From assembly GCA_007693455.1 (NCBI GenBank), contig REDP01000181.1:1-40783 (forward strand): a stretch of DNA of 40,783 nucleotides, given 5' to 3'. The DNA comes from Planctomycetota bacterium (GTDB lineage: Bacteria; Planctomycetota; UBA11346). Positions 6,697 to 32,250 of this stretch are shown in pieces. The position numbers were made by a program, and so were the translations under genes. How positions within the stretch are numbered: the first letter of the stretch is position 1; the number at the start of each line of letters is the position of its first letter. The notes beneath the pieces were generated by a model. It saw only the letters and a program-made list of their open reading frames with translations, had not been told where the DNA came from and searched no databases.

Positions 6697-6752
6697 CAAC
6701 GCAATGGGGGCCGACTTGTTCGCCATGGAGATACCATAGCGATAACACGCAT

Positions 6753-7151
6753 CTACTTGACGGTGCACAATACCTCACCACCAATATTACCACTACGACA
6801 CTTACGGTCAGAGATAATACCTTTCGCGGTGGAAAGGATGCTTATTCCGAAGCCGTTAATGACTGGCTTGAGATCCTTGCTGCCACTATATACGCGGCAA
6901 CCTGGCTTGGAAACACGGCGGATTTCGTTAATAACTTGCTCGCCGTCTTGTCCATACTTCAGCTGCACTTTGATAGTGCGTGCCGGCTGGGTATCCATCA
7001 CATCAACACGAGTGATGTAGCCTTCATCGACCAAGACGTGACAGATGCCTTCCTTGATCTTGGAGTGAGGGAATTTGACGGTGGACTTGTTAGCCTGCAC
7101 GGCGTTACGAATGCAGGTGAGCATGTCGGCAATAGGGTCGCTGCAACTCAT
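6753..7151 (-). CDS. rpsH: 30S ribosomal protein S8
   Basis: S8 binds the central domain of 16S rRNA early in assembly and in Escherichia coli is the spc-operon autorepressor. The 132-residue product shows DPIADMLTCIRNAVQANKSTV, LKYGQDGEQVINEIRRVSKPG and the C-terminal SILSTAKGIISDRKCRSGNIGG. ATG 7151 has AAGGAAG upstream. Whether autoregulation works the same way here cannot be seen. Confidence 0.97.
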   Translation of the reverse strand: MSCSDPIADMLTCIRNAVQANKSTVKFPHSKIKEGICHVLVDEGYITRVDVMDTQPARTIKVQLKYGQDGEQVINEIRRVSKPGCRVYSGSKDLKPVINGFGISILSTAKGIISDRKCRSGNIGGEVLCTVK

Positions 7152-7175
7152 GGGATACTTCCTTGGTAATTCGTT

Positions 7176-7481
7176 CTACCAGCTGGACTTGGTCAAACCG
7201 GGCAGAAAGCCGGCGTGGGCCATACGACGAACGGCAACACGGCTGATGCCCAGACGACGGCTATAGCCGCGTGGACGACCGGTGATGCCGCAGCGATTAC
7301 GCAGGCGCACCTTGGAACTGTTGCGCGGCAGCAAGGCCAACTCGGCACGAGCTTCCATGCGCTCCTCTAAGGTGAGGGTGGTGTCTACCGAACGCTTACG
7401 CAGTGCCTCACGGCGATCACGATAGCGATCACAGAGCACTTGGCGTTGTTGTTGACGTACGACTTTGCTTTTTTTAGCCAT
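7176..7481 (-). CDS. rpsN: 30S ribosomal protein S14 (zinc-free type)
   Basis: S14 belongs to the 30S head. The 101-residue length and lone cysteines (no CxxC pairs) mark the longer zinc-independent form. RNRCGITGRPRGYSRRLGISR and the C-terminal GFLPGLTKSSW are family signatures. ATG 7481, with AAGGAC eight bases upstream, is chosen over the track start nine codons earlier. The stop is TAG, at the exact family C-terminus, which matters for interpreting ureC in this window. Confidence 0.97.
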   Translation of the reverse strand: MAKKSKVVRQQQRQVLCDRYRDRREALRKRSVDTTLTLEERMEARAELALLPRNSSKVRLRNRCGITGRPRGYSRRLGISRVAVRRMAHAGFLPGLTKSSW

Positions 7482-7504
7482 GATGGGGTCCTTGTCCTGT
7501 TGAA

Positions 7505-8065
7505 TCAACGCTCGCGGAACGGCATTCCTATGCCCTTGAGCAGTTCGAAGCTCAGGTCGGGAGTAGTATTGCGAATAACGATGTTGACATGCAAGCCTTG
7601 GTTATGCTCTAAGCGATCGAGCACTACTTCAGGGAAGAGGGCCTGCTCACGCAAGCCTAGGCTATAGCAGCCTTGCTTATCAAAGCCACTGCGCGCACCT
7701 AAACCCCGAAAGTCTTTAATGCGGGGAATAGCGAGGTTGATCAGACGATCAAGAAAACCCCACATACGCTGTCCACGCAAGGTCACGCGTGCGCCAATTT
7801 TCATTCCCTGACGGGAGCGGAAGTTAGAGACTGATTTACGTGCCAGGGTAATGGTGCTCTTCTGCCCTGCCAGCTGGGTCAGATGCTCGGAGACGACTGA
7901 CAAGATATTGCTATCCTGGACTGCGCGACCAACACCCATGTTAAGGCAGATCTTTTCGATTCGCGGCGCGGCCAAGCGATTAGTGATGCCGTGCTGCTTG
8001 CACAATTCATCAAGGACTTCGGCGTAACGCTCGCGCGTTGGTTTTTGCAAGGTGGCTTCACTCAT
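7505..8065 (-). CDS. rplE: 50S ribosomal protein L5
   Basis: L5 binds 5S rRNA and P-site tRNA. The product (186 residues from ATG 8065) has RIEKICLNMGVGRAVQDS, the GARVTLRGQRMWGFLDRLI block and the late NIVIRNTTPD. An in-frame GTG two codons upstream (8071) is also possible; GAGG is ten bases from the ATG and four from the GTG, and ATG begins two bases after the rplX stop. I favour ATG. Confidence 0.96.
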   Translation of the reverse strand: MSEATLQKPTRERYAEVLDELCKQHGITNRLAAPRIEKICLNMGVGRAVQDSNILSVVSEHLTQLAGQKSTITLARKSVSNFRSRQGMKIGARVTLRGQRMWGFLDRLINLAIPRIKDFRGLGARSGFDKQGCYSLGLREQALFPEVVLDRLEHNQGLHVNIVIRNTTPDLSFELLKGIGMPFRER

Positions 8066-8067
8066 GA

Positions 8068-8451
8068 TCACTGTACCTCGAAACGATGTCCGCTTTTCTT
8101 CGACACACGAACAACCTTGCCATCATCGTTGCGCTCGCGACGCACACGTGTGGGCTTACCGGTTTCCGGGTCAAGCAAAGCAAGATTGCTAATATGGATG
8201 GTGCGTAAGCGGGTTACCCGCCCCCCCTCAACATTGGCTTGGGGGTTAGCCTTGACGTGACGAGTATCGACGGCTGAACACGGGCCCTCGACAAGGGCAC
8301 GCTGGCGACGAGGGAACACCCGGATCACGGTACCAGTTTGCCCACGGCGATCCTTGGGACCGGTCAACAACACGACACTGTCCCCAGTGCGGATGTGGCA
8401 CTTCGGCGGGCGGCCTTCATGTATTTTTGCCTTTTGGCTTTTAATCGTCAT
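8068..8451 (-). CDS. rplX: 50S ribosomal protein L24
   Basis: L24 is an assembly initiator protein near the tunnel exit. The KOW motif is seen in HIRTGDSVVLLTGPKDRRGQTGTVIRVF, followed by the RALVEG and HISNLALLDPETGKPTRV blocks. At 127 residues it is somewhat longer than the usual 100-110, with extra residues at both ends (KSQKAKIHEGRPPKC at the start). Standard position between rplN and rplE. Confidence 0.96.
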   Translation of the reverse strand: MTIKSQKAKIHEGRPPKCHIRTGDSVVLLTGPKDRRGQTGTVIRVFPRRQRALVEGPCSAVDTRHVKANPQANVEGGRVTRLRTIHISNLALLDPETGKPTRVRRERNDDGKVVRVSKKSGHRFEVQ

Positions 8452-18569: not shown

Positions 18570-19835
18570 CTAGTGCTGAGTTTTTTTTGACCTACGACCT
18601 CTTGTGCTCAATAGGGTTTTCACATACTGCCACGTGCACAGCATGGCTTGCTGCGCTGCGCGCTGCTGAATATGCTCGCGATCCCCCGCCAAATGCACCT
18701 GACGCGCCTCACAACCCTGTGCACTTGCCACCGCGATCCAAACCGTCCCCACGGGCGTGCGTCGCGTCCCGCCTCCTGGGCCAGCAACCCCCGATACCGC
18801 ACAACATAGGTCACTGCCACAACGCAAACGGCCGTTGATAGCGAGCGCACGCACACATTCCTCACTCACCGCCCCAGGGCCATTGAGAACTACCTCCGGA
18901 ACCGCAAATTCACGCGATTTCACCGCATTAGCATAGGCTATGGATCCCTGACAAAAAACTTCCGATGCTCCTGGCACGGCAGTAAGCGCGGCAGCAACCC
19001 GCCCCCCCGAACAACTTTCCACGGTGGCTAGCGTCCATTGTTTCTCGCGCAAGGCCACCACCAGGCTCTCGGCAAGACCTGGCTCTGGCAAAAGCCAATC
19101 CTGCAGCATCTTATGCAATGCACGCCGACGGCGCTCGACCGCCTGCGCTTCACCAACGGCGCGAATGGTAATAAACCCGCGTTCATGCACGGTAATGCCC
19201 ACCTGCACCGCATCGTCATCCAAGAGCAACCCACCCAAATGGTCCTGCAGAGCGCTTTCGCCAGCACCTGCACAATGGAGCTCCGCCACAGCTGGAGCAT
19301 CAAGACCCGTAATCAAGCGCGGTAAACGGGTCCCTAAACGTTCCACCATGGCCGTCATCTCGACAGGAACCCCTGGCAATGACGCCACCCACGTACCATC
19401 CACCTGCATCAATAGACCCGGAGCAGTGCCTCGGTCATTGCGCAAAATCTGCGCCCCTTTGGGAATCAAGGCCTGGCGTCGATTGCTCTCTGGCACAGCT
19501 TCGCCTGGCTTGCGTCGGCGATAATACTGCTGAATAGCCCGCCATGCCGACGCAGACTCCTCGAGACTACGTCCCGCAGCCATAGCCACAGCATGCCGCG
19601 TACGATCATCCACGGTTGGACCCAAGCCACCAGTCAGCAGCACCAAATCCGCATCGCGCGCCAGTTCACGCACGGTTATAGCGATCACCTCTTCATTATC
19701 ACCAACCGTTCGACAGGTATGGACACGCAGACCCTGCTGACTGCACCAGCGAGCCAAAAAGGCTGCGTTGGTATCCACTGTTTTACCAAAGAGTAATTCA
19801 TTTCCGATGCTCACAATCGCCGCACGGCCAATCAT
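18570..19835 (-). CDS. cinA: CinA family protein (competence/NMN amidase)
   Basis: Two-domain CinA: an N-terminal MoCF/molybdopterin-binding-like domain (about 5-170) with VSIGNELLFGKTVDTNA and LLTGGLGPTVDD, and a C-terminal PncC nicotinamide-nucleotide amidohydrolase domain (about 255-405) with TVESCSGGRVAAALTAVPGAS, GAVSEE and VSGVAGPGGGT. Family members deamidate NMN to NaMN in pyridine nucleotide recycling and some hydrolyse ADP-ribose. At 421 residues length is normal. ATG 19835 overlaps the preceding gene's stop (ATGA) and has AGGAGGGG seven bases upstream, so it is clearly coupled; the track start is 30 codons too far. Confidence 0.94.
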   Translation of the reverse strand: MIGRAAIVSIGNELLFGKTVDTNAAFLARWCSQQGLRVHTCRTVGDNEEVIAITVRELARDADLVLLTGGLGPTVDDRTRHAVAMAAGRSLEESASAWRAIQQYYRRRKPGEAVPESNRRQALIPKGAQILRNDRGTAPGLLMQVDGTWVASLPGVPVEMTAMVERLGTRLPRLITGLDAPAVAELHCAGAGESALQDHLGGLLLDDDAVQVGITVHERGFITIRAVGEAQAVERRRRALHKMLQDWLLPEPGLAESLVVALREKQWTLATVESCSGGRVAAALTAVPGASEVFCQGSIAYANAVKSREFAVPEVVLNGPGAVSEECVRALAINGRLRCGSDLCCAVSGVAGPGGGTRRTPVGTVWIAVASAQGCEARQVHLAGDREHIQQRAAQQAMLCTWQYVKTLLSTRGRRSKKTQH

Positions 19836-20338
19836 GACGCTGCCCCTCCTGCCTGGGCCAGGGCGCGTTGATACAAGGGGTATATCCAGTGCTGAGATAA
19901 GGGCCGACAAGCCCCCTGCCGCCACTCACCCAGAGTTTGCGCCATGGTATCCCAGGCATAGGCATCATCAGACACCCTGCCAGAAGCCACGGCAGCACGA
20001 AAATCCCCATGAGAACACCACTCAACCCCGCGCCCGCGGTCAATTATCAAAGGAGGTGGGGTAAGAAGGTCATGGCCGGATTCAGCGTAACGACCGAGTA
20101 TCTTTGCAATTTTATCGTAGGAGCAGCCACTAAGATCATGCCCCTCCCAGGCCACCAGAACGAAGGCTCCATCTGTCACTACCTGAGCACCACCGCACAG
20201 ACAACGTCCCTCGCGAGCAAACTGCACAAAGAGCTTATCGAGAGCCGTGGTAAGCTCCCCAGCAATCTGCGCAGGAAGCGGCGGGTAGGCCGGATACACT
20301 TTCAGTAAGGCTGTTGCCGCCAATTGATCCAGGTCCAT
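19832..20338 (-). CDS. Uncharacterised protein with SGCSxDK motif
   Basis: A 168-residue soluble protein from ATG 20338, preceded by GGAGG; a GTG four codons earlier lacks a site. The central block VAWEGHDLSGCSYDKIAKIL, with a possible metal- or thiol-active CLCGG before it, recalls a family often mislabelled 'ABC transporter ATPase' in Bacteroidetes genomes, where an SGCSxD sequence is the hallmark; no Walker motifs exist here. This recall is tentative. Translational coupling to cinA suggests co-expression. Function unknown. Confidence 0.75.
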   Translation of the reverse strand: MDLDQLAATALLKVYPAYPPLPAQIAGELTTALDKLFVQFAREGRCLCGGAQVVTDGAFVLVAWEGHDLSGCSYDKIAKILGRYAESGHDLLTPPPLIIDRGRGVEWCSHGDFRAAVASGRVSDDAYAWDTMAQTLGEWRQGACRPLSQHWIYPLYQRALAQAGGAAS

Positions 20339-20726
20339 GACACCCTCCACTAAGTAGTGAGTAGTACGAATGCAATCACGCCAAATGTAGCCTCGTGCGG
20401 CGCTTGTCCATGAGAGAACGCCCTGGCGCTCCAGGGCGGCTCAAAGCTTACCTTGGGTAAGGAATTCCCGCTTTGCGGTGTATGCTTTTGGCGCAAAAGT
20501 ACTTTATTAGGGTTGTTTTTGCTGACGGACGCTGCGATTAAGCATAAGCGTTACACGCCACAACGAGAATCATTTGTTGCAATCAATCCGTTGGCAGCGC
20601 GTTCGCAATCGATGGTCCTTCTCGGACCTCGGCAAAAGCCATGCCATAGGAAGCCAAGCCAAAAACAATACATGTCTTAGCTTCTCATGGCTCAGTAGCA
20701 CTCCTCTCTCATCCTTACACCAACCC
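20339..20726. other. Intergenic region without a supported gene
   Basis: Nearly 390 bases separate urtE's stop from the gene coupled to cinA. A 75-residue plus-strand track ORF here has no family resemblance. The region holds a perfect hairpin (20419-20438), a small CTTACC-TTG-GGTAAG palindrome (20447-20461) and T-rich GTTGTTTTTG near 20513. It must contain the promoter of the SGCSxDK-cinA pair, but I cannot identify it. Confidence 0.5.
20419..20438. promoter_or_regulatory. Perfect 8-bp hairpin upstream of the cinA pair
   Basis: CGCCCTGG (20419-20426) and CCAGGGCG (20431-20438) pair around the 4-base loop CGCT. No U-run follows on either strand. It could be an operator-like palindrome or an RNA stem; no further support. 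Confidence 0.35.
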
Positions 20727-21464
20727 CTACACCGACAGGTAGCGGGCCACTAGAGCGTCGCTGAGTTCGCTCATGTGGTCGCTGGCGACATGACGGCCGC
20801 GGTCCATGATGACAAAGGTGTCGCCGATCTCGCGCACAAAGTCCAGGTACTGCTCCACCAAAATAATGGTCATGCCCCCTTCAGCCAAGCGCCGCAGCAC
20901 GCGACCGATCTCTTGGATAATATTGGGCTGGATGCCTTCGGTGGGTTCGTCGAGCAGCAATACCTTGGGGTCACCCGCCAAAGCGCGGGCGATTGCCAAT
21001 TGTTGCTGCTGGCCGCCCGAGAGATCGCCCCCCATGCGCGCGCGCATGGGACGGAGGATCTCAAACAAATCCCAAATCGCGTCCGGAGGTTGCCGACGGC
21101 CATCGCTACGAGCCTGGCACCCCACCATGAGATTCTCGGCGACCGTGAGTTTGGGGAAAATCTCGCGGCCCTGAGGAACCAAACCAATGCCCGCGCGAGC
21201 ACGGCGGTGGGCGGGCAAAGAGCTGAGGTTGCGGGGGCCCAAGTGAACGCTGCCCGTTTTCAGCGGCAATATGCCACAGATGGTTTTCACCAGGGTGGTT
21301 TTGCCCACGCCATTGCGGCCCATAATACAGGTGATGGCCCCAGGCTCTGCCTGCAGATCAACCCCATTGAGGGCGGCAACCCCGCCATAGGAGAAATGCG
21401 CGCCGCTCACACGCAGGGTGGTTTCGGCAAGGGTGGCGGTATCAGGTCCTGGATCATCACTCAT
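20727..21464 (-). CDS. urtE: Urea ABC transporter ATP-binding protein UrtE
   Basis: One of two ATPases of the high-affinity urea importer. The 245-residue protein has Walker A GRNGVGKTT (49-57), the Q-loop region VPQGREIFPKLTV, signature LSGGQQQQLAIARAL (148-162) and Walker B LLLDEPTEGIQPNIIQEIG; the last stretch is characteristic of UrtE rather than LivF. It starts three bases after urtD and is the last gene of the urea locus. It looks intact. Confidence 0.94.
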   Translation of the reverse strand: MSDDPGPDTATLAETTLRVSGAHFSYGGVAALNGVDLQAEPGAITCIMGRNGVGKTTLVKTICGILPLKTGSVHLGPRNLSSLPAHRRARAGIGLVPQGREIFPKLTVAENLMVGCQARSDGRRQPPDAIWDLFEILRPMRARMGGDLSGGQQQQLAIARALAGDPKVLLLDEPTEGIQPNIIQEIGRVLRRLAEGGMTIILVEQYLDFVREIGDTFVIMDRGRHVASDHMSELSDALVARYLSV

Positions 21465-21467
21465 GGT

Positions 21468-22364
21468 TTAGCGTCCCAAATAGGCTTCAATGACGCGGGC
21501 GTCACTTTGGATGGTACTGAGGCTGCCGTCGGCCAACACTTTTCCCTCATTGAGCACGGTTACCCGGGAGTCGAGCAGGCGCACAAATTCCATATCGTGT
21601 TCGATCACAATCAGCGTATGTTCCCCCTTGAGCTCATTGAGCAGTTGCGCCGTAAGGGCGGTTTCGTGATCGGTGAGGCCGGCTGCCGGTTCATCCACCA
21701 ATAAGAGCTTGGGCGCGGATAAAATTAGCCCGGCAATGGCCAGCCACTGACGCTGGCCGTGGGAGAGTTGCCGCGCCAAAGTACGGCGCTCGGCCAGCAA
21801 ACCCACCCGTTCGAGTAATTGGGTAATGCGGTCCTGGCGTTCTGGGGTCACTCGGCCACCCAGGTTACGCATGCGGTGCCAGAGACGATAGGCCGCCACC
21901 CCCGCCGGGCCACTCAAGCGTGGTTCGTAGGCCTCAATACGCCTGGCAATGGCGGTATCATCTTCGCGCAACGCCGGCAGCGCCAGTAACATATTTTCCC
22001 ACACACTTAAACTATCAAATACATTGGGGGTTTGAAATTTACGCCGCACGCCACGGCTGGCAATGTCAGCCACATCCAGTTGCGTAATCACTTGGCCATT
22101 AAAATACACCTGGCCGGTAGTGGGCCGGGTGAGCCCTGACACCACATCGCACATGGTGCTTTTGCCCGCGCCATTGGGGCCGACCACCACCCGTAATTCG
22201 TTATGACAAATACCAAGATCGGCAATATTGAGCGCGGTGAAACCATCAAATACGGCCGATATATCCTCAAGATAGAGCAAGTAGTAACGATCCCACAAGG
22301 CACTATTGCGCGGCCCTTCCAGCAAATAATTATACACATCAACACTTTGCGCAAGTTCAGTCAT
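21468..22364 (-). CDS. urtD: Urea ABC transporter ATP-binding protein UrtD
   Basis: Second ATPase of the urea importer. From ATG 22364 (GGAGG seven bases upstream, overlapping the urtBC stop as ATGA) the protein has 298 residues. Walker A GPNGAGKST is at 62-70, then GVRRKFQTPNVFDSLSVWENM, the signature LSHGQRQWLAIAGLI and Walker B LLLVDEPAAGLTDHE, all typical of UrtD. The N-terminal 30 residues (LLEGPRNSALWDRYYLLYLED) are longer than in LivG. The track start 80 codons upstream lies inside urtBC and is not used. Confidence 0.93.
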   Translation of the reverse strand: MTELAQSVDVYNYLLEGPRNSALWDRYYLLYLEDISAVFDGFTALNIADLGICHNELRVVVGPNGAGKSTMCDVVSGLTRPTTGQVYFNGQVITQLDVADIASRGVRRKFQTPNVFDSLSVWENMLLALPALREDDTAIARRIEAYEPRLSGPAGVAAYRLWHRMRNLGGRVTPERQDRITQLLERVGLLAERRTLARQLSHGQRQWLAIAGLILSAPKLLLVDEPAAGLTDHETALTAQLLNELKGEHTLIVIEHDMEFVRLLDSRVTVLNEGKVLADGSLSTIQSDARVIEAYLGR

Positions 22365-25318
22365 GACTGATCCTCCGCAGCAGAAGCTGGCTGCCGTCGG
22401 CGCAGTAGCAAAGCCAACCACGCCACGATGGGGATGCTGGTCAAACCACCTGGCAGGAAACGCGGCACCAGAATAAACAATCCGCCCAGCAAGAAGGGCC
22501 AATATTGTGGCGCACGAATGGTCAGCATCTCGTACAGCAGATTGACCAATACCGCGCCCAAAATAGCCCCCCAGACACTGGCTCGCCCACCCAGAGCCAC
22601 CCATACCACCACCATGATCGAGGCCATGGGTGCCATCTCAGCCGGGGTAATAATACCTTTTTGCGGCACATAGAGCATACCGCCAATGGCCGCCAGCATG
22701 GCCGCCAGGGCAAAGGTGGTGGACTTCACCATCCAGGTACGATAGCCATTAAAACGCAGGCGAGTCTCGTCATCACGAATGGCCACTAACACCCGACCCC
22801 AACCAGAGCGCACCAACCACTTACTGCCCACGGCGGCAAGAATTAAAATAACAGTGGTAGCAATATATAACCAGAAACGGGTTTGCGCAAAGGGTCCGGC
22901 ATCGGCTTGGGTGGCAATGGGGAAGCCGAGAATGGTGGAAAAGCCGGTCAGCCCATTGGTGCCGCCCAGGCCGATATCGTTCTTCTGGAAGACCAGCCAA
23001 AAGGCCACGGTAATTGCCTGGGTCAGAATAGCAAAATAGACCCCGCGCATTTTCGAGCGAAAGGTGGTAAAACCAATCAACAGCGCCAAGAGTCCCGGAA
23101 TCAATAAACCTAAAAAGACCGCCGCAGGAAAATTGGCAAACCAACTGATAAACACGGGAACCTCACCCCCAGAAGACATATTATAGGCAAGCGATTGGGG
23201 AATCCCGCCAATCTGCGGGCCGTGATTAATCAGGTAGATCCCCATGGCATAGCCACCCAGGGCAAAGAATAGAAACTGACATAAAGAAAGCGTCCCCATA
23301 TAGCCCCAAATAAGATCCAGGCCCACCGCGCAGATGGCAAAACTGGCAATATAGCCCAGCTTATTGACATACTCCACATTCATCCAGCCCATGCCATAGC
23401 AAAACGGCACCACAATCAGCCCCAGGAAAATCAAGAGGGATCCCGCGATTACATCACCACTACGACTGGCCGGGCGCATCCATGGCATGGCCGTACGGTC
23501 TGCCTGGTCGGCTTGCCGCCCACGGTCAGGGAAAAGTCCCGAGGGCCGCCGCTGCATAATAATAATCACCAAAAATAAGACGAAAACCTGCGACCAAGTG
23601 GAATCGAAAAAGCGGAATGGTTTTTCCATAATGGTGATGGGCTCCACCAGTTTTTCTACCATTCCCAAACCCATACCCGAAAGCACCACGCCAAAGAAAT
23701 TTCCCACACCCCCGACCACCGTCACCAAAAAGCTTTTAACGATATAGGTGGTACCCATGCCCGGACTGGGATTGGTGAGCAGTACCATGCCGTAACCGGC
23801 AAGACCCGCGAGACCACAACCCAAGGCAAAGGTGAGTAAATCCATGCGCCGAGTATTGACCCCCATAGCGGCAGCTATTTCACGATTTTGCACCGTGGCC
23901 CGCAATAACAGCCCAAAGCGGGTTCCCCGCAAGATGAGCAATACCGAAATCACACAAAAGATCGCCAGAGCAATCAGGAAGAGGCGGTTCCAGGGGAGGG
24001 TGACATCCTGCATGATTTCCCAGCCCCCGGAAAAAAGCGCTGGGGTACTCATGCCCAAATTGTCTCCGCGCCACTGGCGCACCGCCTGGATCAGCACCAA
24101 GCTCACGCCAATAGTCGCTAATAAACTATCCAACGGCCGCTTATAGAGATAGCGCAGGAGACTAAACTCCATCACCATACCCACTCCCGCCGCCACCAAA
24201 AAAGCCATGGGGAAGGCTATGGCATAATACCAGTCACCCACATGTGGCGATAAAAACTCAAAGCAGGCCCAGGAGGTCACCGCCCCCAGCATGAGCATTT
24301 CGCCGTGGGCCATATTAATCACCCCCATCACCCCAAAGGTGATGGCCAGGCCCAAAGCAATAAGCACCAGAATGCTGCCCAGGGAGACGCCAGCAAAGGC
24401 ATGACCAATCCAATCGGTGCGCCATTGATGCCAGCGAATGCGACTGATTGCTGCCGTCATGGCCTCCTGTTCATCAGCGCTGACCTGCAAGGTCCCCTCG
24501 TCCACCGAGCGCTGCCGCCGCTCCAATACCGTTAAACCACGCAGGCTTTTATAGCGACCTAAGGTCTGTGCGGCGGTGACCCGTTCTTCTTCGCTGGCCG
24601 CATCCGCCGCAGCGGTGAGATGAATCAGGGATATGGCCACCGCAGCAGCACGGCGCACCCGGGAATTGGGATCGTCTTCACGCAACTGGGCCAGCAGCGG
24701 CAATGCCTCCACCACCCCGCGATTACCCAAACGATCTGCCGCCCGCCGCCGGTTATCCGCATTGGGCAGCAATAAGCCCACCATGGCCAGGGCTTCTTGG
24801 CTGGCGCGGCGAACGGCTCGATGCACGCGAAAATTGTCGAGTTCCGAACGGTCGACCGTAGCCAAGGGTTCATCGACAATTCGCTCGTCCTCATCGATCG
24901 CCGCATAGGCCGTATAGAGCTGCGATTTGCCACCCTCGCCGGTTACCACATGGACGGCACGTCCCTGCCATAGGGAGATACTGCGATCCATAACCCGCTG
25001 CAGGGCCCATTCCACTCGCTCATCGGCAAGGCTCACCATTGCCGCTACCGCAGCTGGCCCCTGCTCACGATCAAGCAGCTGTAAGAGTAAGGCTTCGAGG
25101 CGCTCTTCGATTTCTTCGCCGCTCAGGGATTCCTCATCGGCATCCCCAGCAGCGACCGCTGCCGCATCAGCTGCCGCTGACTCCAGAGGATTGGCTTCAT
25201 CCTCTTCTTGGGCCCCCAATAGGGCCATGCTGCACAATAACGCACATACAATACCACTGCGCACACTGCGCACTAAACCGTGCACACTCAACCGTGCAAA
25301 ACCGTGCACTAAATACAC
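22361..25318 (-). CDS. urtBC: Urea ABC transporter permease, UrtB-UrtC fusion
   Basis: One 985-residue ORF carries both permeases of the urea importer. Residues 1-36 look like a signal sequence; 40-300 form the N-terminal extracytoplasmic domain usual for UrtB, with HEAT-like alanine-rich helices; 305-598 is the UrtB membrane part (GVMGVINMAHGEMLML, ending RPSGLFP); 599-620 is a short polar linker (DRGRQADQADRTAMPWMRPA); 621-985 is UrtC (WGYMGTLSLCQFLFFALGGY, IRDDETRLRFNGYRTWMVKS, VPQKGIITPAEMAPMASI). In most bacteria these are separate genes. The start is GTG 25318 with GAGG five bases upstream; GTG codons a few residues on are alternatives. Confidence 0.93.
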   Translation of the reverse strand: MYLVHGFARLSVHGLVRSVRSGIVCALLCSMALLGAQEEDEANPLESAAADAAAVAAGDADEESLSGEEIEERLEALLLQLLDREQGPAAVAAMVSLADERVEWALQRVMDRSISLWQGRAVHVVTGEGGKSQLYTAYAAIDEDERIVDEPLATVDRSELDNFRVHRAVRRASQEALAMVGLLLPNADNRRRAADRLGNRGVVEALPLLAQLREDDPNSRVRRAAAVAISLIHLTAAADAASEEERVTAAQTLGRYKSLRGLTVLERRQRSVDEGTLQVSADEQEAMTAAISRIRWHQWRTDWIGHAFAGVSLGSILVLIALGLAITFGVMGVINMAHGEMLMLGAVTSWACFEFLSPHVGDWYYAIAFPMAFLVAAGVGMVMEFSLLRYLYKRPLDSLLATIGVSLVLIQAVRQWRGDNLGMSTPALFSGGWEIMQDVTLPWNRLFLIALAIFCVISVLLILRGTRFGLLLRATVQNREIAAAMGVNTRRMDLLTFALGCGLAGLAGYGMVLLTNPSPGMGTTYIVKSFLVTVVGGVGNFFGVVLSGMGLGMVEKLVEPITIMEKPFRFFDSTWSQVFVLFLVIIIMQRRPSGLFPDRGRQADQADRTAMPWMRPASRSGDVIAGSLLIFLGLIVVPFCYGMGWMNVEYVNKLGYIASFAICAVGLDLIWGYMGTLSLCQFLFFALGGYAMGIYLINHGPQIGGIPQSLAYNMSSGGEVPVFISWFANFPAAVFLGLLIPGLLALLIGFTTFRSKMRGVYFAILTQAITVAFWLVFQKNDIGLGGTNGLTGFSTILGFPIATQADAGPFAQTRFWLYIATTVILILAAVGSKWLVRSGWGRVLVAIRDDETRLRFNGYRTWMVKSTTFALAAMLAAIGGMLYVPQKGIITPAEMAPMASIMVVVWVALGGRASVWGAILGAVLVNLLYEMLTIRAPQYWPFLLGGLFILVPRFLPGGLTSIPIVAWLALLLRRRQPASAAEDQS
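25276..25308. repeat. Three direct copies of AACCGTGCA at the urtBC 5' end
   Basis: AACCGTGCA occurs at 25276-25284, 25290-25298 and 25300-25308, covering codons 4-14 of urtBC. The repeat creates several in-frame GTG triplets, which makes the true start of the signal sequence uncertain. Confidence 0.7.
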
Positions 25319-25395
25319 TATTACCTCGACATAATGAGTGGGGGAGGGATGAGATGATGGCGGGAAGCTCAGGTTCGGATGACTACGGAGCTCAC

Positions 25396-25428
25396 ATCAC
25401 CACAGAGGACACCGAGAGCACAGAGGAA
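25396..25428. repeat. CACAGAGGA-type intergenic repeat
   Basis: Between urtBC and the urtA remnant lies TCACCACAGAGGACACCGAG followed by AGCACAGAGGA, with CACAGAGGA at 25401-25409 and again at 25420-25428. Similar CACAGAG/ACACGGAG intergenic sequences are, from memory, dispersed in planctomycete and other environmental genomes. No function known. Confidence 0.5.
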
Positions 25429-25497
25429 GATTTGAGTCGACGGTTTTTTCTTCCGTGCTCAATGCGCTTGAGTGGGAGCGTCACTGTGGCCGAAGCA

Positions 25498-25532
25498 ACC
25501 CTCCGCAACTGCCTGAGACAGGTACGGAGGGT
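25498..25532 (-). terminator. Hairpin downstream of the urtA remnant
   Basis: ACCCTCCG (25498-25505) pairs with CGGAGGGT (25525-25532); inside, CCTG pairs with CAGG around AGA. It lies 25 bases beyond the urtA stop on the transcribed strand. No clear U-run follows. In an intact operon it might reduce read-through from the abundantly needed binding protein gene into the permease genes, a common arrangement for ABC importers. Confidence 0.55.
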
Positions 25533-25556
25533 GCGGCATTAACGAAACACGATGGG

Positions 25557-26458
25557 CTATCTGGGACCACCAGTGGGTTCAATGGCTTCCAGCTCTTCGG
25601 GGGTATGCAGCAGGCTGGAGTAGCTATCAGGCTCCACCAAACCATCGCTGGACCACACGATATCGAACTGACCGTCTTCACGGATTTCGCCAATGTGTAC
25701 CGGCTTAAAGGTGTGCTGATTGGTGGGGTGCATTTTCTTGGGACCACCGGGGGCGTCGAATTCCAGACCGTACACGGCTTCGCGCACGGCATCCACATCA
25801 AAGCTGCCCGCTTTTTCCGCGGCAGCTTTCCATACATGGACACCAAAATACGAGGCTTCGATGGGGTCGCAGGTCACACGATTGCGGCCTCCAGGCAGAT
25901 TATTGCGCTCGCAATAAGCCTTAAAAGCTTCGACAAAGGCATTGTTTTCTGGGGTGTCGATAGACTGAAAATAATTCCAGGCAGAGAAGTGGCCCACCAG
26001 ACGGCTGGTATCCATGGTGCGCAATTCGTCTTCGGAGACGGAGAAGGCAATGATGGGACACTCGTCAGAGGTCAAACCCTGGTTGGCAAACTCGGTGTAG
26101 AAAGGCACATTGGAGTCGCCATTAATCGTGGAGAGCACCACCGCGTCGCCGCCAGCGGCAAACTCACGGATTTCCGCGACAATGGTCTGATAATCCTGAT
26201 GATGGAATGGGGTGTAGACTTCGCGGATGTTTTCCTCGGGCACGCCTTCTTGTAAAAGGTAGGCCTTGAGCACGCGGTTGGCGGTGCGGGGGAAGACATA
26301 GTCGGTGCCCAAGAGGTAGAACTTCTGGGCTTCCAGTTCTTCAATAGCGTAGGCGGCTGCGGGCACCAGCTGCTGAATGGGCGAAGCACCGGTGTAAAAA
26401 ACGTTGAGGCTTTGCTCTTCGCCCTCGTACTGCACCGGGTAAAAGAGCAGGCCGTACT
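25557..26458 (-). pseudogene. urtA: Urea ABC transporter substrate-binding protein, 5'-truncated
   Basis: The frame from about 26458 encodes the C-terminal two thirds of UrtA, beginning at YGLLFYPVQYEGEEQSLNVF, a block that normally lies some 130-150 residues into the protein. Later blocks NIREVYTPFHHQDYQTIVAEI, GRNRVTCDPIEASYFGV and MHPTNQHTFKPVHIGEIREDG are well conserved, with no internal stop. The signal sequence and first lobe are missing: upstream DNA encodes the start of UreF in another frame. A secreted urea-binding protein cannot be made from this copy. The track's 292-residue ORF starts at an internal GTG (26435). Confidence 0.9.
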
Positions 26459-26749
26459 GGCGCGGCGCACGCTGGGAGTGATCATGGTAGCATCGGCGTG
26501 GCGATCCAAGGCGATGATCCGCTCTGGATCATGGTGGGCCGCGTTAATATAACCCATGCTACTGGAAACGGTATGTACCGCAGCCCAGCGCAGCCAAGCG
26601 CGTAGCGCCGCGATATCATTAATCAGCCCTGCTTGGGTGGCGGATTCCAATCCTCCAGAATGGGCAAAGGCGCCAGTGGGAAAGGCCGAGTCGGCCAATT
26701 GCCACAGGAGCCATTCCTGCCGCGATGCACTCAGTGGAGAGACCGTCAT
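26459..26749 (-). pseudogene. ureF: Urease accessory protein UreF, 3'-truncated
   Basis: UreF with UreD and UreG loads nickel into urease. ATG 26749 lies four bases after the ureC stop. The first ~97 codons are convincing UreF: LLWQLADSAFPTGAFAHSGGLE and ALRAWLRWAAVHTVSSSMGY, continuing to about ATMITPSVRRAS. From there the DNA encodes UrtA in a different frame; the track's 225-residue ORF merely continues out of frame. The C-terminal ~130 residues, which contact UreG/UreD, are missing. Confidence 0.9.
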
Positions 26750-26753
26750 GGAC

Positions 26754-28493
26754 TCAAAATAAAAAATAACGTTGGGCTAAAGGAAGCTGCGCTGCGGGCT
26801 CGCAGGTAAGATGCACCCCATCGGCAGTGACGCGGTAGGTTTCCGGGTCGACCTGAATATCGGGGGTCGCGGCATTGAATACCATATCGCTCTTACGCAC
26901 GCTGCGGCAGCCACGCACTGGGCTGATGGTTTTCTTCAGTCCGTAGTTAGCAGCAATACCCGCGGCAACACAGGACTGGGACACAAAAGCAATGCTTGTG
27001 GGCCCCACGGCAGCGCCAAAAGCGGCAAACATAGGCCGCATCAGCACTGGCTGCGGGGTGGGGATACTGGCGTTGGCATCACCCATTTGCGCCCAGACAA
27101 TGCGGCCGCCTTTGATAATGAGTTGCGGCTTGGCTGCAAAACAGGCCGGATCCCACAGTACCAAGTCTGCCAGCTTGCCGGGGGCAATAGACCCCACTTC
27201 ATGCGCCATACCATGGGCGAGGGCGGGATTGATAGTATACTTGGCCAAATAGCGCTTAATGCGAAAATTATCGGCGCGGCGATTGGCCGGACTGTCATAG
27301 GCGCTGGGCGGTGCGAGATGACCGCGCTGCTGCTTCATCTTGTGCGCCGTTTGCCAGGTACGAGTAATCACCTCGCCAATGCGACCCATGGCCTGGGCAT
27401 CTGAGCCCATAATCGAAATGGCTCCCATATCGTGTAAAATATCTTCGGCGGCAATGGTTTCGCCACGGATGCGCGATTCGGCAAAGGCCACGTCCTCAGG
27501 AATACTGGGATCCAGGTGATGGCACAGCATAAGCATATCCAAATGCTCATCAATGGTATTGACGGTATAGGGGCGGGTTGGATTGGTACTGGAGGGGAGA
27601 ATGTGCTCCACCCCACAAACGCGAATAATATCCGGGGCATGCCCCCCACCAGCCCCTTCCGAGTGGTAGGTGTGGATAGTGCGGCCACGAAAGGCCGCGA
27701 GAGAGTGCTCGACCGACGCCGATTCGTTCAGGGTATCGGTATGAATAGTCACCTGAATATCGCAGTCCTCGGCCACGCTTAAACAACAATCAATCGCCGC
27801 TGGAGTAGTGCCCCAGTCCTCATGCAGCTTGAGGCCAACGGCACCACCGTCGATCTGTTCTCGCAAACCCGCTGGCTAGGCCGTATTGCCCTTACCAGTG
27901 AGGCCTATATTCATGGGAAACGCATCAGTGGCCTGCAGCATCATGCGCAGATGATGGGCGCCAGGGGTGCAGGTGGTGGCATTGCTCCCCGTGGCTGGTC
28001 CAGTGCCACCACCCACTAAGGTGGTGAGCCCAGAGGCCAGGGCTTCAGGCAATAACTGGGGGCAAATAAAGTGCACATGGGTATCCAAACCGCCAGCAGT
28101 GACGATCATCCCCTCGCCGGCAATGACCTCGGTAGTCACTCCCACAATAAGATTGGGATCCACCCCAGCCATGACATCGGGGTTTCCTGCCTTACCCAAA
28201 CCGACAATACGCCCGTCTTTTATACCAATATCGGCCTTTACAATGCCTGCTGCGACATCCATTACCAGGGCATTGGTGATCACCACATCCAAAGCCCTGT
28301 CGGGACCAACGCCACAAGCCTGCCCCATGCCTTCGCGCAGGACTTTGCCACCGCCGAATTTACACTCATCGCCATAGTGGGTATAGTCCGCCTCCACCTC
28401 CGCCCAAAGATCGGTGTCGCCCAGACGTACCGCATCGCCAGTCGTGGGGCCAAACATGGCAGCATAAGCGCTGCGTGGCATTTCGTAAGCCAT
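26754..28493 (-). pseudogene. ureC: Urease alpha subunit with internal amber stop
   Basis: The catalytic subunit of urease (urea to ammonia and carbamate). The frame is full length (~579 codons) but has TAG at 27876-27878, within [11 protein letters not shown]-stop-PAGLREQ. Klebsiella-type UreC has Gln there (GKGN..QP..LREQ), so a single CAG-to-TAG change explains it. Every active-site element is kept: THVHFICPQ His pair, the lysine that is carbamylated (GLKLHEDWG), [21 protein letters not shown], the flap [20 protein letters not shown] and the Asp of GSDAQAMGR; the C-terminus AQRYFLF is intact. Both halves are in one frame (offset 633). Start ATG 28493 or GTG 28499, overlapping the ureAB stop. 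Confidence 0.93.
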
Positions 28494-28495
28494 GC

Positions 28496-29269
28496 TCACT
28501 CACCCTCCGCATTCGCGGTATTGGCAAAGCCGCGCTCAGCCACCGCCGAACGATAGCGAGCCAATACCTCGGGGTCATCGGCGGCCCCATCAGCCAGGGC
28601 ATTGCCGCCACGAATAACTCGCTCACCGGCAATGGGCACCAGCTCCACCGTCTTGGCCTCACCGGGCTCAAAGCGCACGGCTGTTCCAGCAGGAATATTG
28701 AGACGATGACCGAAAGACGCCACACGGTCATAACGCAGATAGGGATTGGTTTCGCCAAAGTGGAAGTGACTGCCCACCTGAATGGGCCGATCCGAGGTGT
28801 TGGTCACGCGCAAGCGCTGCACCGGCCGATGGGCATTGAGGGTAATGGAACCTTCAGCCAGGCGCAAAGCTCCTGGTTCAACCTCCTCGCCATGGGTGTC
28901 AAATAGGGAGCTATCCGGCACCGGCAAAAAACTTCCATACAAAGCCATTGCCAAATCGCCATGTTCAGCGGCGATGGGGTGGTGCACGGTTACTAATTTG
29001 GTGCCATCGGGAAAGGTACCTTCCACTTGCACATCGTGAATTAAGGCAGGCACTCCCGGCATCACCTGGCGGCGCCCCAAAAGGCTGGCCCCCAAGGCCA
29101 TAAGCTCACTCACCGAACGCCCGTCACGAATGAGCTCCAACACCACGCTGGCAATCAATGCCACTGCCTCGGGATAGTTTAAGCGCACCCCCCGCGCTAA
29201 ACGCTTTTGCGCCAAGGCGCCCACTTGATGAAGAGTGAGATGATCCACCTCACGAGGACTCAAACGCAC
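28496..29269 (-). CDS. ureAB: Urease gamma-beta fusion subunit
   Basis: Residues 1-100 are the gamma subunit ([60 protein letters not shown]), residues ~133-235 the beta subunit ([54 protein letters not shown]). In between lies a spacer (~101-132). The fusion parallels Helicobacter UreA; most bacteria have two genes. Start is GTG 29269, with GAGGAGG five bases upstream. It lies between ureD (91 bases upstream) and ureC (overlap or 2-base gap). It looks intact. Confidence 0.94.
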
Positions 29270-29360
29270 AGGAACCTCCTCATACTACTCAGAGCATGGT
29301 ACAGGCTGAGAGAACTAAGCCGGCAGAATGATGCGTCAGTAAGCATTTCATAGGCCATGG

Positions 29361-30185
29361 TTAGAGCAAACTACGCCAGGGATCGTCACCCAACTGGGGG
29401 ATCAACCACTGACTGTGGGCGCAGCAGAAGGCCCGGGCGGACTCCACATCGCGCGCCAATCCGCGCACCACGCAGCCATCGGCGATGGGGCTCACACTGA
29501 TCCGACAGCCATCAATGGCCTGACCCTGAGCAAGCGCCTGTACGCCTTCCTGGCATCGAGGTCCGTACATGCCCAGGGTGAACATACAACGCCATTGAGC
29601 CAGTTGCGCACGCAGGTCATCCCCCTGTAAACTGATGCGGTCACGCACAAGCACCGTCTCCCCCACTTGCAGCGTGGTAGCCAGGTGCAAGTGACTGGCA
29701 TGCCAATGTTCGCCCTGATCTGGACGCCCAGCACTCACACATTCCCACCAGCAACAGCTCCCCCCGGGCTGACAGTGGTACAAACTCTCCTGGCGATAAT
29801 GGGCGCCCGCATAGGCGGTGAGTGGGTGCGGTACATGCGCCAATAACGCGCCATCGGCAATGCGCCCGGTCATGCCCTGACGTGAGCCCTGAGCCTGGGG
29901 ATCTTTATAGACTTTGCTCGCCCCCTGGGTGCTCAACAAAACGCTGGCAGCAGCCTCCACGTCCACCGCCATATCCAATTGATCCCCTGCCACCACGCCA
30001 CCACCAAAGGTGAGATGACACAGCCACACTGCTGGGCCGCGGGCATACGGCGCCAAAAGCTTGGCAGGAGTACGAGCCTGCTGTGCCAGTACAGCACTTG
30101 CCCCATCCACCCAGCCAATACGCGCCCGCGCCTCGCCGGGGGCAAGGGTGACTGGTGACGATTGCACAGGGAGGGAAGTACTCAC
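29361..30185 (-). CDS. ureD: Urease accessory protein UreD
   Basis: UreD (UreH) binds apo-urease and passes nickel from UreG. The 274-residue product shows GGGVVAGDQLDMAVDVEAAASVLLSTQGASKVYK, the family core, then ALLAHVPHPLTAYAGAHYRQ and WWECVSAGRP. Start is GTG 30185 with only a weak CAGG site. It is the first gene of the urea locus and is divergent from dinG, so the operon promoter should lie between 30186 and 30282. It looks intact, with no frameshift. Confidence 0.93.
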   Translation of the reverse strand: MSTSLPVQSSPVTLAPGEARARIGWVDGASAVLAQQARTPAKLLAPYARGPAVWLCHLTFGGGVVAGDQLDMAVDVEAAASVLLSTQGASKVYKDPQAQGSRQGMTGRIADGALLAHVPHPLTAYAGAHYRQESLYHCQPGGSCCWWECVSAGRPDQGEHWHASHLHLATTLQVGETVLVRDRISLQGDDLRAQLAQWRCMFTLGMYGPRCQEGVQALAQGQAIDGCRISVSPIADGCVVRGLARDVESARAFCCAHSQWLIPQLGDDPWRSLL

Positions 30186-30282
30186 GCCTGCAGAATATCC
30201 CTCGCCCTAGGCTCAAGCAAGGCGAGAGTGAAGGGCGCAGCCTAGCCCTTGAATGGAACGGTATTGACCCTACTGTGCGGGC

Positions 30283-32250
30283 GTGCATACCACTGACGAT
30301 ACGCTCCCTCTCTTGGGTCCTGAGGGTCTCCTGGCCAAGGAACTCCCAGGATACGAACATCGCCCACAGCAACTCACCATGTCATCGTTGATTGGTGAAG
30401 CCATCGCCAATGGCCAACATGCTGTGGTCGAAGCCCCGACTGGGGTGGGCAAAAGTCTCGCCTACTTAGTTCCTGCGGCGCTGCATGCGATACGCAATAA
30501 ACGCAAAGTCGTCATCTCCACGGGGACCATCGCTCTGCAGGAACAACTCATCCATAAAGACATCCCTACCCTACAAAAAGTCCTGCCAGGACTACGGGCA
30601 GTATTGGTGAAAGGGCGACAAAACTACCTCTCGTTGCGGCGCATGGAATATGCCACATCAGGGCAGCAAGCCCTCTTTGAACAGCGCGAACAGGCTCGTG
30701 AACTGCAGCTCATTAAAGAATGGGCTGCCACCTCGAATGTGGGTGATCGTGCCGACTTAGGCTACGACCCCCATCCAGCAGTATGGCGGCAAGTGGTCAG
30801 CGATGCCAATAACTGTCTGGGGCGTCGCTGCCCGCGTTATGATAGCTGCTTTTTCTACCAAGCCCGGCGGGCCATTGAGGAAGCGGATATCCTAGTGGTG
30901 AATCATCACCTCTACTTTGCCGACCTGGCTTTGCGCGGTGAGCATGCTGCCATTCTTCCCGCCCATGATGTGGTTATTTTTGATGAAGCCCATGGCCTTG
31001 AAGATGTCGCCACCGATCACCTGGGAACCTCCATCAGCGATGCGCAAATTCGCTATTACCTCGATGGCCTCTGGTCTGCCAAAGGCAAAGGCCTCTTGGC
31101 CGAGAGCCCCTGGGGAGATGGGCGGATGGCGGTCGAGCATTGTCGTCAGGCAGCCGACCTCTTTTGGCGCGACGTGGCTGCGCTTAATCTTCGTGCAGCC
31201 AATGATGAAGCAGTGCAACGCATTGCCCAAGCTGATGCCATTGACAATAGTCTCTCCCCGCAGCTCGACCAACTCGCCAAAGCGTTACGAGCCTTTGCCG
31301 GCCAAGCCGAAAATGCCGATGAAGCCAACGAACTCAAAGCGCAAGCTGATCGTGCCGACCTCTTTGCGGGCACCCTGCGCGCGCTCATCAGCCAACAATG
31401 GGAACACTATATTTATTATAGCACCGTACCCGCTGATCGCGGCCCAATCGCCCTGACCGCCAGCCCCCTTTCGGTGGCAGAGTTATTACGCGAACATCTC
31501 TGGGACGCCACGGGAAGCGTGGTCCTTACCAGTGCTACCCTGGCGGCTGATGACTCGGATCGCTTCCTTTTTTTGCGCAAGCGTTTGGGCCTCGAGGACG
31601 CCATCTGCAAGCGTCTGGATTCCCCCTTCGATTATCAACGACAAGCGCGACTCCTGGTCAACGAAAGTCCCCTTGATCCCAATAGCGAACGCTTTGTTCG
31701 CGCTACGGCACAATGGGTGGGGGATTTTCTCGACCAGTCCCCTGGGGGCACTTTTATTCTCTTTACCAGTTACCGACAAATGCAGCAGGTCCACGACCTC
31801 CTGGCTGGACGCCTGGAACGACGGCAACGCTTTGTTCTGCGCCAAGGCGGCCGCATGGGTCGCTCGCAAATGCTGGATGTGTTCAAAAGCACGGGCAATG
31901 CCATCCTTTTTGGTACGGCATCCTTTTGGGAAGGCGTTGATGTTCGCGGTGAAGCATTACAAAATGTAATTATTGTAAAACTGCCCTTTGAAACCCCTGG
32001 ACATCCTCTGGTTGAGGCGCGGCATCAAGAGATTCGCCGCAACGGGGGCAACCCCTTTATGGAACGCTCAGTACCTGAAGCCATCCTCCGCCTCAAGCAA
32101 GGAATTGGCCGCCTCATTCGCACCAGTAGCGATAGTGGAACCCTGGTCATTCTCGACCATCGCGTGCTTACCAAGCAATACGGCCGCTGGTTTCTGCGTG
32201 CTCTTCCCACAATGCCCACCGAACGCATTCGCATCGATCAGCAGCCCTGA
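30283..32250 (+). CDS. dinG: DinG-like Fe-S DNA helicase (XPD/Rad3 family)
   Basis: A superfamily 2 5'-3' helicase related to DinG/YoaA. The 655-residue product shows YEHRPQQLTM, Walker A APTGVGKS (51-58), an Fe-S-like insertion with Cys178, Cys183 and Cys189 (NNCLGRRCPRYDSC), DEAH (234-237), ILFGTASFWEGVDVRGE and motif VI QGIGRLIRTSSDSG. The first of four expected cysteines, in VKGRQNYL-x-LRR, is Ser117, so the cluster may be incomplete or Ser-ligated. The GTG start at 30283 gives a family-typical N-terminus (LLGPEGLLAKELPGYE), though its site is weak. Gene divergent from ureD; no SOS box is seen. Confidence 0.92.
   Translation: MHTTDDTLPLLGPEGLLAKELPGYEHRPQQLTMSSLIGEAIANGQHAVVEAPTGVGKSLAYLVPAALHAIRNKRKVVISTGTIALQEQLIHKDIPTLQKVLPGLRAVLVKGRQNYLSLRRMEYATSGQQALFEQREQARELQLIKEWAATSNVGDRADLGYDPHPAVWRQVVSDANNCLGRRCPRYDSCFFYQARRAIEEADILVVNHHLYFADLALRGEHAAILPAHDVVIFDEAHGLEDVATDHLGTSISDAQIRYYLDGLWSAKGKGLLAESPWGDGRMAVEHCRQAADLFWRDVAALNLRAANDEAVQRIAQADAIDNSLSPQLDQLAKALRAFAGQAENADEANELKAQADRADLFAGTLRALISQQWEHYIYYSTVPADRGPIALTASPLSVAELLREHLWDATGSVVLTSATLAADDSDRFLFLRKRLGLEDAICKRLDSPFDYQRQARLLVNESPLDPNSERFVRATAQWVGDFLDQSPGGTFILFTSYRQMQQVHDLLAGRLERRQRFVLRQGGRMGRSQMLDVFKSTGNAILFGTASFWEGVDVRGEALQNVIIVKLPFETPGHPLVEARHQEIRRNGGNPFMERSVPEAILRLKQGIGRLIRTSSDSGTLVILDHRVLTKQYGRWFLRALPTMPTERIRIDQQP

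Follow-up and report, generated by a model that had tools for sequence, protein, structure and literature searches.

The stretch of DNA analysed here, hereafter the window, is the entire contig REDP01000181.1 (C318), 40,783 bases long. It comes from an assembly of 3.63 Mb in 334 contigs that is 91.4% complete with 6.1% estimated contamination. A single-strand cluster on the minus strand carries, in order, ureD, ureAB, ureC, the start of ureF, the end of urtA, urtB-urtC, urtD and urtE. On the urease side, ureD (29361–30185; PF01774) and ureAB (28496–29269) are intact. The latter fuses the gamma and beta subunits (PF00547 and PF00699) and is 84% identical to its counterpart in a genome of the same genus (G001). 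ureC (26754–28499) is interrupted solely by a TAG codon. Next come a remnant of ureF (26456–26749) and the C-terminal three quarters of urtA (25557–26455), which has neither a start nor a signal peptide. On the transporter side, urtB-urtC (22361–25318; TIGR03409 and TIGR03408), urtD (21468–22364) and urtE (20727–21464; TIGR03410, above cut-off) are intact. The best match of urtD is TIGR03411, just below that model's cut-off, so that UrtB, UrtC, UrtD and UrtE are all represented.

UrtB and UrtC form one in-frame protein of ∼985 amino acids. This run-on reading frame was considered as a third lesion and rejected, because the same in-frame fusion occurs in three related loci (L057, L058 and L074; Phycisphaerae, Algisphaera and Phycisphaerales records) and is natural. 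The two genes are separate in the family relatives L030 and L052. Between urtA and urtB, a stretch of ∼30 bases (∼25395–25430) has 88–93% matches at three other sites in the genome and resembles a dispersed short repeat.

The ureF and urtA remnants are bounded by an ATG at 26749 and a TAG at 25557 on the minus strand, as an earlier sequence-only reading had placed them. That reading had also described a switch from UreF to UrtA coding, in different frames, within a few bases. The switch is real in the sequence and lies at 26455–26450. The UreF frame runs from the ATG to S98 (26458–26456) and covers 98 of ∼226 codons. It falls short of the length that a Pfam UreF match requires, and was recognized by its 74% identity over 88 amino acids to the intact UreF of G001 (E = 3e-44). 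The UrtA frame runs from GGC at 26453–26451 to the TAG, and matches positions 92–361 of TIGR03407 and 93–360 of PF13433. It begins at the point where relatives read NGLLFYPVQYEG, and TIGR03407 positions 1–91 are absent together with the signal peptide. Because the two frames differ, the ureF reading frame continues past the junction (26450–26456) as 127 missense codons, to 26072.

The changeover falls within six bases, ACGGCC (26455–26450). All six are compatible with urtA, where relatives read AAC GGC CTG, and at least the last three are compatible with ureF, where the same-genus gene reads GCC. A microhomology of 3–6 nt, and nothing longer, may thus be present at the junction; chance yields such a stretch easily. 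None of the 13-mers around the junction recurs in the sequence searched from this genome, and a genome-wide DNA search of the assembly found no second copy of the junction DNA.

The interruption of ureC, overlooked in the sequence-only reading, is a second lesion of the same operon. An in-frame TAG lies at codon ∼206 of ∼579 (27876–27878, minus strand), where the window reads GNTA*PAGLREQ and G001 reads GNTAHPAGLAEQ. Related sequences have K, R, H, L, N, S, Q or F at this position, and none of those compared has a stop there. The TIGR01792 match spans the stop continuously, with positions 2–200 before it and 205–568 after it, and amino acid identity to the G001 UreC is 94% before the stop and 89% after. 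Reassignment of TAG was rejected: L2, a cinA-like gene, urtE and urtA all end in TAG in the window, so the codon is a stop here. It precedes the lysine of GLKLHEDWG, the residue known to bridge the two nickel ions of urease. With a nonsense codon of its own in ureC, the urease is broken twice.

The surroundings of the cluster bear on whether the contig is sound. A 172-amino-acid gene without an assigned function (19832–20350, minus strand) adjoins urtE, and a dinG-like helicase gene (30283–32250, plus strand), present in 20 of 23 family genomes searched, adjoins ureD. Together they bracket the whole ure-urt cluster (20351–30282). In ten other family loci (L157, L158, L159, L161, L164, L165, L166, L169, L171 and L174), a homologue of the 172-amino-acid gene lies near dinG in divergent orientation. 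Since this neighbour relation is kept in the family, the two sides of the contig that meet across the cluster truly belong together. A gross chimera is thereby rejected, and any assembly error must be internal and local. As the two flanking genes are neighbours without the cluster in those ten loci, the comparison suggests that the ure-urt cluster was inserted as a unit at this site. No shared repeats of at least 8 bases were found between the two ends of the cluster.

An undeleted version of the arrangement occurs in one relative. In Phycisphaerales bacterium RYN_433 (JAQGHM010000044.1; L100), ureF, ureG, urtA and urtB follow one another on one strand, in the order expected for the window before a deletion. 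The points that match the window junction are ∼1.67 kb apart (6719 to 8388). This locus differs from the window in being intact, and its UreF and UrtA are 41% and 70% identical to those of the window; ureC lies outside the stretch compared. Comparison with relatives' gene order, proposed earlier as a check, thus found the expected order in this locus, but in six family loci where both clusters are visible, urt precedes ure, the reverse of the order in the window.

The same-genus genome resembles the window in carrying ureD, ureAB, ureC, ureF and ureG on one strand (L025), and the C-terminal part of its UreC is 89% identical. It differs in that every reading frame is intact and the ure operon lies at another genomic site. 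It also has TRAP-type transporter genes that separate ureD from ureAB and are read in the opposite direction. They encode a TRAP-type transporter and a TAXI-type binding protein (G001:C143, 823–3980), possibly another urea importer. No close urtA was found in this genome. Its contig ends ∼290 bases past ureG in a short-unit repeat, and is therefore silent on the gene that follows. The same repeat opens another G001 contig, on which there is no urt gene.

The genes missing from the window were not found elsewhere in the assembly. A genome search had been proposed for the ureF end, ureG and the urtA 5′ end, and none of them turned up. No TIGR00101 match for UreG and no PF01730 match for UreF were obtained, the UrtA query matched the window only, and same-genus DNA covering the ureF end and ureG returned nothing of note as a query. 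Since the assembly is 91% complete, these genes could possibly lie on an unbinned fragment. The sequence-only reading had also counted ureE among the deleted genes, which was not borne out. UreE_N has no match in this genome, nor in five family genomes tested, so ureE need not have been lost; its loss was rejected, and the gene was probably never present in the cluster.

Set against a functional urease operon (structural genes plus ureDFG), the window retains an open ureAB, while ureC is interrupted, the UreF C terminus is gone and UreG is absent. Set against a working UrtABCDE system, a complete exported UrtA is wanting, its N-terminal part and signal peptide being lost with no other UrtA in the assembly. 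We think it probable that a chromosomal ureD-ureAB-ureC-ureF-ureG-urtA-urtBC-urtD-urtE operon has recently lost its function through two or more events, among them a deletion and the ureC nonsense codon. A single short deletion would have joined ureF at codon ∼98 to urtA ∼92 mature residues in, removing the ureF end, all of ureG, and the UrtA signal peptide and N-terminal part. If the ancestor resembled L100, as the lineage's former gene order presumably did, the deletion would measure ∼1.7 kb. Its mechanism would have required little or no homology. The nonsense codon would truncate the catalytic subunit before the bridging lysine.

Urease and ABC-type urea uptake are both likely to be dead as a result. 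The UreF C terminus and UreG are required for urease maturation, as established for the Helicobacter and Klebsiella proteins (PMC3792862). With both gone and ureC cut, the urease should be inactive. Likewise, a UrtA that lacks the signal peptide and the N-terminal part would be expected not to deliver urea to the transporter. The earlier proposal of a single ureF-to-urtA deletion in a ure-urt operon remains, apart from ureE, the best reading, given the one-strand cluster, the L100 order and the absence of UreG, another UreF and another UrtA. Against it stand the occurrence of the ure-urt order in one relative only, and the fragmentation and estimated contamination (6%) of the assembly.

These last features bring in a local assembly error: the DNA that separates ureF from urtA would have been dropped during assembly, and the real operon would be unbroken at this point. 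In that case the TAG in ureC would be an error of the consensus, a variant among strains or an independent genuine mutation. A metagenome-type assembly in 334 contigs with 6.1% contamination makes such an error plausible, as does the near-absence of decay beyond the two lesions. However, no repeat of at least 13 bases lies at the junction in the sequence searched and the junction has no second copy in the genome, so a misjoin has no obvious cause. Searches of the rest of the assembly did not recover the missing genes, flanking synteny is kept, and a misjoin would by coincidence have struck an operon that carries another lesion. The sequence-only reading had given a mis-join equal standing with a deletion. 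It is less likely than that, since on either side of the cluster lie genes that are neighbours elsewhere in the family, and we regard it as an unlikely account that still merits a real share of the doubt.

A tandem duplication of a urt-ure operon is far less probable. Six family loci do have urt before ure, and this very junction would arise if the segment from urtA through ureF had been duplicated, with intact urtA and ureF-ureG copies lying outside it. Yet ureD adjoins dinG and urtE adjoins the 172-amino-acid gene, the contig carries no additional copy of any urt or ure gene, and a second UrtA, UreF or UreG is absent from the assembly; the outer copies would require further deletions. Least credible of all is that translation passes the ureC TAG by readthrough or recoding, leaving ureC unbroken and the deletion alone to matter: many residues are tolerated at the site and ureC is well conserved after it, but TAG ends four other reading frames in the window and the urease would still lack UreG and the UreF end.

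The age of the two lesions was gauged by counting private changes at positions that do not vary among family outgroups. For UreC the count is three in the window genome and two in G001, and three is at the low end of the relatives' range (2 to 11). UrtA has six in the window genome, the highest of 15 sequences (the others have 0 to 5). The ratio dN/dS against G001 is of little use, as synonymous sites are near saturation. By these counts, further decay beyond the two lesions appears slight at most. The inactivating deletion and nonsense codon thus look recent, because the coding around them shows little further decay. Near-absent decay fits an artefact equally well.

Two independent lesions in quick succession, with the rest of the operon intact, might be read as selection for loss of urea use in this lineage, perhaps as guanidine or some other compound took over as nitrogen source; we hold this improbable. 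Elsewhere in the genome (L149; G000:C21, 9496–13560), two DUF1989-like genes are followed by a gene for an 891-amino-acid urea-carboxylase-like protein without the biotin carboxylase part. Judged by its neighbours, this urea/guanidine-carboxylase-like gene may serve the use of guanidine and not of urea. A similar gene is present in G001. In another family member, G002, urtABCDE is followed by urea-carboxylase-like and allophanate-hydrolase-like genes (L052; G002:C27, 8847–18716), and no UreC match was found in that genome. Its gene content suggests that uptake was kept and urea is hydrolysed by another route.

If real, the double inactivation makes it wrong to score the genome as urea-using, despite the presence of most urease and urt genes. 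More broadly, scoring by gene presence in metagenome-type assemblies would need a check for intact frames. The locus would also offer a clean example of one deletion that costs nickel loading and urea capture together. Unless the deletion is an assembly error, the event is a commonplace instance of gene decay, of a kind already known. According to the account in PMC7913351, which cites Chouikha and Hinnebusch (2014), the urease of Yersinia pestis was silenced by the loss of ureD. There, as here, a urease operon that keeps most of its genes is inactivated through damage to an accessory gene. The cases differ in that the ureD loss, in the same account, is tied experimentally to flea transmission, whereas the window combines, with no known benefit, two lesions, one of which also strikes the urea transporter.
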